From contig NZ_CP049715.1 in assembly GCF_011082725.1 (NCBI RefSeq), positions 1,612,001 to 1,676,000 on the forward strand: 64,000 nucleotides of DNA. Reading direction: 5' to 3'. Position numbers and translations under genes: made by a program. Below are positions 19,818-23,327 of the stretch, piece by piece. The DNA is from Apibacter sp. B3706. Its GTDB lineage: Bacteria; Bacteroidota; Bacteroidia; Flavobacteriales; Weeksellaceae. Under the pieces are notes generated by a model. The model worked only from the letters and a program-made list of their open reading frames with translations, was not told the DNA's origin and searched no databases. Numbering within the stretch: position 1 is the stretch's first letter; each line of letters starts with the position of its first letter.

Positions 19818-20078
19818 TTTTACTTTATATTATCAGTTACTTTGTATTTGAATTTTGTTAGTATATTTTATAGCAAAGGTACTAAATGTATTCTAATAAG
19901 GAATAAACAAGTAGTAGTATTTTAATAGAATTGGGAAGCCTATTAAATAACTGCCACTTCGTATTGCTTGCTTCCCTAATGCATAACTGTATTTTAAATG
20001 CTAGAAAACAGCTAATTAGCTATCTAAAATTTTTAGATACATTTTTTTTATTAAGTAAAAATTAAATAAACAATAAAC

Positions 20079-20639
20079 ATGAAAAAAATATCAATATCTA
20101 TAGTAAGTTTATCTTTAAGCTTATTTATAACATCATGCAACGACGATTATAGCGATATCCCAATGCAAAAAACTTTATCTGCAGAAAATACATTAAACAG
20201 CCAGACACAAAAAGAGGAAAATAATTCCGAAAATACGGAGATTGGAATTTATAGGGTCGATATGGATATCAGTGGAGAAACTGCTCAGAATCCCGTGAGA
20301 AGAATGGATATCAGCGGGGAAACTGCTCAGAATCCTGTAAGAAAAATGGACATTAGCGGAGAAACTGCTCAGAATCCCGTGAGAAGAATGGACATTAGCG
20401 GGGAAACTGCTCAGAATCCCGTGAGAAGAATGGATATCAGCGGGGAAACTGCTCAGAATCCCGTAAGAAAAATGGATATTAGCGGGGAAACTGCTCAGAA
20501 TCCCGTGAGAAGAATGGACATTAGCGGAGAAACTGCTCAAAATCCCGTGAGAAGAATGGATATCAGCGGAGAAACTGCTCAGAATCCCGTGAGAAGAATG
20601 GATATCAGCGGAGAAACTGCTCAGAATCCCGTGAGATAA
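20079..20639 (+). CDS. Lipoprotein of nine tandem 14-residue repeats
   Basis: A 186-residue predicted outer-envelope lipoprotein. The signal peptide ends in the lipobox FITSC with Cys20 as the lipidated residue, and the acidic NDDY right after it resembles the surface-export signal of flavobacterial lipoproteins. A 40-residue Asn/Glu/Thr-rich spacer leads into nine units [R/K]MDISGETAQNPVR from residue 62 to the last residue. The protein ends exactly on a repeat, with no further domain. Each junction is dibasic (R-R or R-K). Nearly all base differences between copies are synonymous, so the peptide sequence seems selected. It could be a multi-copy peptide precursor, a surface stalk or a decoy antigen; no family is recognised. 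It is followed by a terminator and then a sensor kinase/regulator pair. Confidence 0.8.
   Translation: MKKISISIVSLSLSLFITSCNDDYSDIPMQKTLSAENTLNSQTQKEENNSENTEIGIYRVDMDISGETAQNPVRRMDISGETAQNPVRKMDISGETAQNPVRRMDISGETAQNPVRRMDISGETAQNPVRKMDISGETAQNPVRRMDISGETAQNPVRRMDISGETAQNPVRRMDISGETAQNPVR
20262..20636 (+). repeat. 42-bp tandem repeat, nine copies, in frame
   Basis: Nine units of 42 bases (the first lacks the leading codon) encode identical 13-residue cores. Copies differ at a handful of positions, for example GAT/GAC, ATC/ATT, AGT/AGC, GGA/GGG, CAG/CAA, CCC/CCT and GTG/GTA, all synonymous. The only coding change is the lead codon AGA (Arg) or AAA (Lys, units 3 and 6). The GTA-AGA-AAA junction occurs twice, three units apart, suggesting that a three-unit block was duplicated. 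The copy number is likely to vary between strains by slippage or recombination. Confidence 0.97.
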
Positions 20640-20723
20640 TTCATTCTAATTTTGAGAAATAATTGAATTTCAAAAAAAATAAAATATTTTAATTCAATCA
20701 ATAATTCATAGATATTTATACGG

Positions 20724-20754
20724 CAAGGAATACATGTATTCCTTGTCTTTTTTT
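20724..20754 (+). terminator. Strong intrinsic terminator of the repeat-lipoprotein gene
   Basis: A perfect palindrome CAAGGAATACA/TGTATTCCTTG (22 bases) is followed by a T-rich run, 85 bases after the stop. It separates this gene from the histidine kinase gene, which therefore needs its own promoter. Confidence 0.82.
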
Positions 20755-20829: not shown

Positions 20830-22659
20830 ATGAAAACATTTATTATATATTTATTCTATATCGTTGTTTTATTGCTATATTTTCCTTCATGCAAAGATTT
20901 TACTATACGAAAAAAGAAATCTGATAGTTCAATTAAAAAATCAAAAATATATAATACTCCTTTTACTTATTATACTAATGAAACCATTCAATTAACGTAT
21001 AAAGAAATATATAGGCTAAAAAAAGAAAAGAATAATGAACTTTTAGCTAATATTTATTTTCAAATGGGTCATTATTATTTAAACAAAAATAAAAGTGATA
21101 GCTCATTTTATTATTTCAATCATGCAAAAGAAGCGTATTTACTTGATAATAATAATGTCTTTATCGGTAAAAGTTTAATAGATATGGCCATCATCCAAGC
21201 GAATGAAGGAGATTACATAGGAAGTGAAGAGACCGCAGTTGAAGCACTACGATATATTAAAAAAACTCAACATAATGCTTCCTTATCTGCTGTATATAAT
21301 TGCTTAGCCATATCTAAAACTGAACAAAAAGATTACGATCAAGCCATAAAATATTATAATTTGGCTTTAAAATTTTCAACCAGTAAAATATCTGTTATCA
21401 ACATAAAAAACAATGAGGCGGTTGTTAATATTAAAGCCGGAAATTATGACAATGCCATTAAAATTTTAACTAAGTTAATTAACGATTCTTTTTTAAATAA
21501 TCTCCCCCTTCATAAAGCTCGTATAACTGATAACTTAGCTTATGCAAAATGGCTCGATAATCCAAACTATAAGGCTGATAAAGATCTTTATCAAGCCCTA
21601 AAAATAAGAGAAAAAGCATCTGATTCTATAGGACAAATTGCCAATCATTATCATTTATCGGAATACTATGAAAAAACAAGCATTAAAAAAGCAATTTTTC
21701 ATGCAAATAAAATGTATGATATTGCTTTAAAATTAGGGAATATAGATGACCAACTTGCGGCGATGCAAAAAATTATTCTTTTAGATACACCTTCTACGCA
21801 TGAAAAAAATTATTTTAATTCTTATATTAGATTAAATGATGAAATCAATTTTAAAAGAATTCGAGCCAAAAACCAATTTGCTTTAATCCGTTATGAAGTA
21901 GAACGTAATAAAGAAGAAAATGCTTTACTAAAAGCTGAAAATGCTCAAAAAAACTATTTGCTATTACAACAAAAAGTAACGATTGGTTCTATTATAATTT
22001 TAGCATTAATAATTGTAATATTATTAATATTTTGGCATAAAAGAAGAAATGCTAAATTTAGACAAGAAAAAATTGAAGAAATCCATCGAACCGAATTGAA
22101 ATATTCTAAAAGAATTCATGATGAAGTAGCCAATGGTATTTACTTTTTGATGGTTCAACTTCAAAATAATTCAGATGTAAAACCAACGAAGATAATTGAT
22201 GAATTAGACCAATTATATCTTAAATCAAGAGATATCTCGCATGATTCAGATTATAAAATTAGTTTGACTGAAGAATTTTCAATTACTTTACGTAATATGA
22301 TTAAACATTATGGTTCAAAAAATACCCGAATAATATTAATAGGTAATGAATCCCATATTTGGAAAAATATCCCAGACAATAAAAAAGAGGATTTATATTA
22401 TATTCTTAAAGAATTAATGACTAATATGAAAAAACACAGTCAAGCTGATATTGTTACATTAAAATTTAAAAAAGAAGATTGTATCATTTCCATTGAATAT
22501 ACAGATAATGGCGTGGGTTTTTCCGGCTCAGGTACCGAACCATTCGCAGATTTAAAAAACATAAATGACAGGTTACACCCAAAAAAAGGTTATTATATTA
22601 TTGATCGCAACAAAAAGATCGGCTGCTCAATAAAAATTTTATATTCAATATCTAATTAA
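20830..22659 (+). CDS. TPR-containing sensor histidine kinase
   Basis: A 609-residue two-component sensor. A lipoprotein-like signal (YFPSC, Cys21) precedes a periplasmic region of tandem helical repeats (about 50-340; for example AVYNCLAISKTEQKDYDQAI is TPR-like). A coiled stretch follows, then one membrane helix (about 382-402) and a cytoplasmic kinase. His430 in KRIHDEVANGIYFLM is the phospho-acceptor; the ATPase has ELMTN (N box, Asn532) and DNGVGF (559-564). This TPR-TM-HATPase layout is common in Bacteroidota. The lipobox combined with a membrane helix is unusual; the first segment may instead be a plain signal anchor. It is in an operon with the response regulator 5 bases downstream. 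The ligand is unknown; the repeat lipoprotein just upstream is a candidate by position only. Confidence 0.87.
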   Translation: MKTFIIYLFYIVVLLLYFPSCKDFTIRKKKSDSSIKKSKIYNTPFTYYTNETIQLTYKEIYRLKKEKNNELLANIYFQMGHYYLNKNKSDSSFYYFNHAKEAYLLDNNNVFIGKSLIDMAIIQANEGDYIGSEETAVEALRYIKKTQHNASLSAVYNCLAISKTEQKDYDQAIKYYNLALKFSTSKISVINIKNNEAVVNIKAGNYDNAIKILTKLINDSFLNNLPLHKARITDNLAYAKWLDNPNYKADKDLYQALKIREKASDSIGQIANHYHLSEYYEKTSIKKAIFHANKMYDIALKLGNIDDQLAAMQKIILLDTPSTHEKNYFNSYIRLNDEINFKRIRAKNQFALIRYEVERNKEENALLKAENAQKNYLLLQQKVTIGSIIILALIIVILLIFWHKRRNAKFRQEKIEEIHRTELKYSKRIHDEVANGIYFLMVQLQNNSDVKPTKIIDELDQLYLKSRDISHDSDYKISLTEEFSITLRNMIKHYGSKNTRIILIGNESHIWKNIPDNKKEDLYYILKELMTNMKKHSQADIVTLKFKKEDCIISIEYTDNGVGFSGSGTEPFADLKNINDRLHPKKGYYIIDRNKKIGCSIKILYSISN

Positions 22660-22664
22660 TAATA

Positions 22665-23327
22665 ATGTTCAAAAAAATACTTATTTCAGAAGATTTTGAC
22701 AGTTACAATATAGGGATTAAAAAAACTGTTGAGGAATTAAAAATTCCTATTATTGACCAGTCTTTCTATTGCGATGATGCTTTACTTAAAATCAAAAGAG
22801 CAATTATGGATCATGATCCCTATGATCTATTAATAACCGATTTATCTTTTGCTTCTGATTATAGAGAACAAAAATTGGATGGAGGCGAGGATTTAATACT
22901 AGCGGCTAAAAATGAACAACCTGATATTAAGGTTATCGTTTTTTCGATTGAAAATAGGTTTCATAAAATTAAATCTATGTTCGACAGATATAAAATTAAT
23001 GGATTTGTAACCAAAGGCAGAAATGACACCAAAGAATTACATAAAGCTATTATATCGGTGAATCAAAATAAAACCTATATTTCCAACGATAATTACAAAA
23101 CAAATCAAAATAATTTATATGAATTATCGGAATATGACATCAATTTATTAAAATTACTTTCTAAAGGAAATACTCAAAAAGAGGTGGAACAACATTTAAA
23201 AGAAAATCAAATTGTGCCTAATAGTGAAAGTTCAATAGAAAAGAGGCTTGCCTTATTAAGGGCATCTTTTAATGCAAAAGACACTAAACAATTATTAAGT
23301 TTAATTATTGAATTAGGGATAATTTAA
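22665..23327 (+). CDS. Response regulator with LuxR-like C-terminal domain
   Basis: A 220-residue regulator, partner of the kinase ending 5 bases upstream. The receiver domain has an acidic start (LISEDFD), the phospho-Asp in DLLITDLSF (near residue 53), FSIE and the late Lys in FVTKGR. The C-terminal 75 residues form a helix-turn-helix of LuxR/GerE-like size, beginning ELSEYDINLLKLLSKGNTQK. It has an uncommon loop (NQIVPNSESSIEKRLALLRA) in place of the usual VKTHLSNI helix, as in the Bacteroidota variant. It would bind DNA when phosphorylated. The GTCTTTA array at 19789 is a possible target. Confidence 0.83.
   Translation: MFKKILISEDFDSYNIGIKKTVEELKIPIIDQSFYCDDALLKIKRAIMDHDPYDLLITDLSFASDYREQKLDGGEDLILAAKNEQPDIKVIVFSIENRFHKIKSMFDRYKINGFVTKGRNDTKELHKAIISVNQNKTYISNDNYKTNQNNLYELSEYDINLLKLLSKGNTQKEVEQHLKENQIVPNSESSIEKRLALLRASFNAKDTKQLLSLIIELGII

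Follow-up and report, generated by a model that had tools for sequence, protein, structure and literature searches.

Signalling by peptides through receptors built on a tetratricopeptide repeat (TPR) superhelix is known from the Firmicutes, where it is represented by the RRNPP pairs Rap-Phr, NprR-NprX and PlcR-PapR, whose peptides are matured and then re-imported by an oligopeptide permease. Two other kinds of small exported protein are known to act on a neighbouring function: SecM, an exported arrest peptide with a C-terminal motif that lies upstream of the gene it regulates, and CpxP, a folded periplasmic accessory regulator of the kinase CpxA. The Bacteroidota are a phylum dominant in guts, soils and water, and our searches of open-access papers found no pair of peptide ligand and TPR-kinase receptor described from them. 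Here we describe a locus in the genome of Apibacter sp. B3706, a bee-gut bacterium of the Weeksellaceae, within a window of 64,000 nucleotides (nt; contig NZ_CP049715.1, positions 1,612,001 to 1,676,000), in which a lipoprotein gene ending in nine tandem units stands upstream of a gene for a membrane-anchored TPR histidine kinase. We lean towards the view that the lipoprotein supplies a ligand, as its multi-copy precursor or in tethered form, and makes up a small-peptide/TPR-kinase module with this neighbouring kinase.

The original prediction, made from the sequence alone, was of a lipobox lipoprotein ending in nine 14-residue units flush with the stop codon, and both the open reading frame (ORF) and Tandem Repeats Finder (period 42, 8.9 copies, 92% matches, score 624) bear this out. 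The array consists of 8 x 14 + 13 residues, its last unit ends at the TAA stop, and it is the only such array in the whole 2.30 Mb genome. The protein has the signal peptide and lipobox Cys of a bacterial lipoprotein, the Cys being invariant in 6 orthologues, and Pfam and NCBIfam scans returned nothing beyond sub-threshold chance matches, in keeping with the earlier statement that it belongs to no described family. A codon comparison across the repeats showed variation at 7 of the unit's first 13 positions, every change being synonymous, while codon 14 (AGA/AAA, hence R/K) gave the sole amino-acid change, just as predicted. Non-synonymous changes make up ∼79% of the possible single-base changes in the unit, and the probability of finding at most one among 8 variant codons is ∼1e-4 by a simple binomial, which takes no account of homogenisation between copies. 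A. mensalis shares the peptide unit with different synonymous codons (ACT GCA CAA .. GTT vs ACT GCT CAG .. GTG). Judged from these codons, the peptide sequence of the unit is held constant by selection while synonymous codons vary, as had been proposed, and the array offers a view of selection acting on a candidate ligand whose copies have multiplied with their sequence unchanged.

Syntenic lipoproteins in other Apibacter species all begin with MKK and have a lipobox followed, after the Cys, by an acidic D-Y-x-D, so that the acidic residues once likened to surface-export signals are a conserved feature. Their units differ, being MDISGETAQNPVR x 5 in A. mensalis, MDVSGETAQNPV[RS] in G004 (its array cut short by a contig end), PTSGETGHVAAENAN in G007, QAQVGGEQGHI in A. 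muscae and TSGELIQLPRRLDNK in G002. The units are homogenised within each species, and an [ST]GE or GGE core is common between them. In G001, a metagenome-assembled genome of the same genus, the lipoprotein has a single copy, RAEISGEVKRLNLIP, and adjoins mutL and the divergent gene D described below. This divergent copy scores low on the motif matrix introduced in the next paragraph, and its assignment therefore rests on position. Because units differ between species and G001 has a single copy, the array probably grew within the genus. The G001 lipoprotein and D lie on L200 (G001:C50) and the kinase on L102 (G001:C22), so the pair may be split in this genome.

We searched 148 family genomes and a named genome collection with the kinase, not the lipoprotein, as the query and obtained 127 non-redundant kinase loci. 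Just upstream of the kinase, 102 of these had a small ORF on the same strand, hydrophobic at its N-terminus and with a C-terminus of the GGE type, compared with 13 of 656 other small hydrophobic ORFs (2%) in the kinase loci that fit the same description. With the contig-split Apibacter case added, a small propeptide, whose secretion is predicted from its signal or lipobox sequence, is encoded with the receptor candidate in 103 of the 127 loci, as RRNPP propeptides are beside theirs. Peptide-kinase loci span the Flavobacteriia, Sphingobacteriia and Chitinophagia. The typical peptide is 45-80 residues long, with a hypervariable linker and one motif at its C-terminal end (e.g. DTGGETGHPTPPK in Epilithonimonas, DTGGETGQLPPPPKK in Chryseobacterium, DTGGENGHLPPPKP in Pedobacter and DTGGETGHIPTK in Sediminibacterium), and the C-terminal consensus over the 102 loci is T[GS]G[ED][TND]G[QH][ITLV]PP. 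A score matrix derived from 95 non-Apibacter peptides ranked ISGETAQNPV, from the B3706 unit, first among the 17,654 ten-mers of the window, at 14.6 bits against 6.6 for the runner-up. In 16 of the 20 loci examined from Flavobacterium and relatives, the equivalent place holds a lipoprotein of 48-79 residues, whose end, rich in Gly, Asp and Pro, is more divergent. By sequence comparison, the Apibacter lipoprotein is a lineage-specific, tandemly amplified form of the gene, encoding a small exported peptide or lipoprotein, that stands before the TPR kinase. Multiplication also occurred independently in G089 (GGDDRTQVPVK x 4, L100), and two loci, L046 (G016) and L151 (Chryseobacterium sp. ERMR1:04), have two tandem peptide genes upstream of one kinase, with a near-identical motif and different linkers; such multiplied motifs and duplicate genes are as expected from selection for the amount or avidity of a ligand. 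Separately, the peptide gene of L284 (G239) contains two TDGDIV-type copies, an independent multi-copy version.

These data bear on the idea, raised in the original prediction, that the lipoprotein is a surface stalk or an antigen of variable length. A stalk, adhesin or antigen of this sort, with the kinase as a coincidental neighbour or merely its regulator, would suit a lipoprotein with acidic residues after the Cys and a repeat array. It would not, however, account for kinase linkage throughout the phylum or for homologues that are mostly 45-80 residues long with one unit, and an AlphaFold2 model (built from only 6 sequences) has a signal helix and then no secondary structure over residues 29-186, with a mean predicted local distance difference test score (pLDDT) of ∼40. 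A structured stalk thus finds no support in this model, and we regard this whole class of explanation as very improbable.

The kinase itself has an invariant lipobox Cys21 and an invariant His430, and its nearest named relatives are those of A. mensalis (80%) and A. muscae; many ORFs of the family have no ATG start at the signal peptide. Because of Cys21 and a hydrophobic helix near residues 377-400, the TPR domain is predicted to be periplasmic. A structure model (65 sequences, pLDDT 86.7) has one transmembrane region besides the signal sequence. The best fold matches of the sensor were the peptide-binding TPR receptors LGN-Frmpd4 (Z 25.0), TSK-histone tail (24.2) and APPBP2-degron (24.0), followed by the quorum-sensing receptors NprR (22.8), RapI (22.2), NprR-NprX (21.6), Rap-CSF (21.5) and Rap-Phr* (21.5); Foldseek and a profile search also placed it nearest to peptide-binding TPR receptors. 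The modelled sensor would therefore be a TPR superhelix of the peptide-binding kind, the agreement with RRNPP receptors being one of fold only. Asn157, 194, 195 and 235, of the kind by which TPR grooves hold a peptide backbone, are 97-100% conserved. Several Flavobacterium genomes (G331:C52, G284:C1, G257:C1 and G327:C1) have up to four such kinases, some a few kilobases apart, which may be expanded receptor sets.

We propose that the lipoprotein would be exported with nine ligand copies (core SGETAQNPV) on an unstructured tail, and that the units, whether released by cleavage or left on the tail, would bind the neighbouring kinase in the groove of its periplasmic TPR superhelix, so setting its phosphotransfer to the adjacent regulator. 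Amplification to nine units would provide more ligand per precursor, or avidity. Binding, processing, the direction of the effect and any action between cells are steps that we infer. The main rival is an accessory regulator: an intact lipoprotein that stays in its own cell and, as CpxP does with CpxA, holds the kinase off or on, reporting the state of the envelope or of lipoprotein export. The same linkage and fold evidence fits this explanation, and the kinase and the lipoprotein, each with a lipobox, could both sit in the envelope of a single cell, but it leaves unexplained the nine near-identical copies as well as the single-copy peptides of ∼50 residues with hypervariable linkers in relatives, and we consider it rather unlikely.

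Several observations weigh against the ligand proposal. A shared TPR fold is in itself no proof of peptide binding or of function. Peptide divergence follows the kinase core as much as the TPR domain (Mantel test of co-divergence, partial r 0.17 for the TPR domain vs 0.30 for the kinase core). About one-fifth of the kinases have no peptide; one clade of these orphans has lost 8 of 47 conserved TPR columns and other clades none, and since several peptide-less kinases keep these columns, the kinase may well be able to work without a peptide. The dibasic R-R and R-K junctions, which the original prediction likened to processing sites, are not established as such because they are not conserved in orthologues: G004 has R-R, R-I, S-R and R-K, and dibasic junctions are absent from G007 and A. 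muscae. The earlier idea of a multi-copy peptide precursor therefore loses this part of its argument, while gaining from the single-copy motif in kinase-linked exported peptides of many genera. In favour of the proposal, in genomes whose only such kinase lacks an adjacent peptide we found no detectable peptide and no clear D elsewhere. Orphan kinases at L088, L091, L097, L098, L101; L065, L073, L074; and L270, L272, L273 adjoin SprT/manC, msrA or rsgA.

The order of the locus is fixed: divergent gene, structured leader RNA, peptide gene, intrinsic terminator, kinase, regulator (Table 1). The earlier interpretation, partly supported as it is, had missed all of these apart from the lipoprotein gene. 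A response regulator directly follows the kinase in 125 of 126 loci. Of the 102 peptide loci, 70 have a homologue of D divergently upstream; of the 25 loci without a peptide, none does. In relatives D is usually 220-310 residues long, with a helical N-terminal domain, a transmembrane helix and a C-terminal CMYW..FFT..G domain, of which Apibacter D keeps only the N-terminal 97-140 residues; it had no Pfam or PDB match and belongs to no known family. An antimicrobial, bacteriocin-like precursor with an adjoining regulatory pair might also be thought of, given small exported peptides beside a kinase and regulator. We hold this to be extremely improbable, as no immunity, modification or transport gene was seen to be constant in the loci examined and, in contrast to diversifying bacteriocins, the motif is hydrophilic and has been conserved among distant species.

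Table 1. Features of the peptide-kinase locus in the Apibacter sp. B3706 window.
Feature	Position	Strand	Basis
Divergent gene D, 97 residues	19426..19719	-	Homologues divergently upstream of peptide loci (alignment A4)
Structured leader RNA, model core 19894-19996, remainder runs to start codon	19894..20078	+	Covariance model R1
Lipoprotein gene, 186 residues; proposed multi-copy ligand precursor	20079..20639	+	Sequence, Apibacter orthologues
Signal peptide, lipobox ITSC (residues 17-20, Cys20), then acidic NDDYSD	20079..20138	+	Sequence; kept in Apibacter orthologues
Nine tandem 14-residue units MDISGETAQNPVR[R/K]	20262..20636	+	Repeat and codon analysis; motif homologous to that of the single-copy peptides in other genera
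Intrinsic terminator (stem of 11 pairs, T tail) separating the lipoprotein gene from the kinase gene	20722..20747	+	Same feature in related loci
Sensor kinase: lipobox Cys21, predicted periplasmic TPR superhelix (∼45-350), transmembrane segment ∼377-400, DesK-type, His430	20830..22659	+	Profile scans, alignment, model
Response regulator, LuxR/NarL-like C-terminus	22665..23327	+	Weak matches to MctR, UvrY and FimZ models

The leader upstream of the peptide gene contains a GGGAAG..CTTCCC block, which 99 of the 102 loci have in the 200 nt ahead of the peptide start codon and which sits in covarying stems with an apparent GGGAAG/CTTCCC pseudoknot (alignments A5 and A6). Covariation was assessed by explicit pair counting that included the pseudoknot. 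Across 45 leaders, 79.9% of cells pair compared with 42-51% in slid controls, the covariation score is 0.274 (controls at most 0.121) and there are 218 double changes (controls at most 105). RNAalifold, which allows no pseudoknot, for this reason recovered only the invariant GGGAAG/CTTCCC helix, an invariance partly due to the selection of leaders on that helix; in the G002 leader the helix has a compensatory change (CGGGATA..TATCCCG). The covariance model matched the window (E 7.7e-6). Of 25 genomes, it found a single copy of the RNA in each of 14, always directly upstream of the peptide locus, and none in the five orphan-kinase genomes tested. No family in Rfam (15) was above its gathering threshold for the leaders of 7 loci or the window stretch. 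Matches to tsr1 and MicX, far below threshold, were dismissed. The Flavobacterium small RNA Rfp18 (PMC9723704), for which the main text of that report gives neither sequence nor position, is neither matched to the leader nor excluded. The leader is a candidate new regulatory RNA that would control ligand expression; a riboswitch, an attenuator or a small RNA are possible roles.

Of 94 loci, 76 have an intrinsic terminator between the peptide stop and the kinase, compared with 1.4% of shuffles; it would allow ligand mRNA to exceed kinase mRNA. A structured RNA upstream, then an exported small ORF whose conserved end is often rich in Pro, followed in single-copy homologues by a terminator and a regulated gene, also recall an arrest or leader peptide, on whose Pro-rich C-terminus the ribosome would stall during export and so control read-through into the kinase, much as in SecM. 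A single stall site would give no reason to select nine copies, however, and the window hairpin begins as far as 83 nt past the lipoprotein stop codon. Moreover, the motif lies deep inside the protein, not at its end, in A. muscae and L118, and the conserved acidic stretch after the Cys suggests a working mature lipoprotein. Stalling is, on this evidence, an improbable explanation.

Should the ligand proposal hold, the loci may together represent a phylum-wide peptide-pheromone system of Gram-negative Bacteroidota, with exported or lipid-anchored precursors of a T[GS]GExG[QH]xPP ligand, histidine kinases with periplasmic RRNPP-like TPR domains, ligand synthesis controlled by a new structured leader RNA and, in Apibacter, a nine-copy polyprotein; we put this wider view forward tentatively, as a possibility short of an even chance. 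With a candidate ligand, its likely receptor, a regulator and a candidate new RNA in one locus, in more than 100 genomes, the question of peptide sensing becomes directly testable with a synthetic peptide of 10-14 residues.

Compared with described systems, the locus resembles SecM in that an exported ORF whose C-terminal motif is conserved precedes another gene, but differs from it in its many motif copies, its sometimes internal motif and the distance of the window terminator from the stop codon. A small exported protein acting on an envelope kinase, as in CpxP-CpxA, is one possible mode, although, unlike CpxP, the Apibacter lipoprotein has a repetitive tail predicted to be unstructured. As in the Gram-positive peptide two-component systems Agr and ComP/ComX, a peptide precursor, a histidine kinase and a response regulator share one locus; the modelled sensor, however, is a helical TPR kinase with a single transmembrane segment rather than a polytopic one, and no processing or modification enzyme was seen as a constant neighbour. 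There is also a likeness to RRNPP, in which a small exported precursor with a conserved short end likewise stands beside a TPR-superhelix receptor; in its fold, the predicted sensor comes near to NprR (Z 22.8) and Rap (Z 20-22). In contrast to RRNPP, the Apibacter/Bacteroidota system has a Gram-negative host, lipoprotein precursors, a structured leader RNA and up to nine ligand copies. Instead of a cytoplasmic regulator with a C-terminal TPR domain, the receptor candidate has, in order, lipobox Cys21, a TPR domain predicted from sequence to be periplasmic, a transmembrane segment and a kinase. The system would thus work like RRNPP, yet stands apart from it because its receptor candidate is a membrane-bound kinase.
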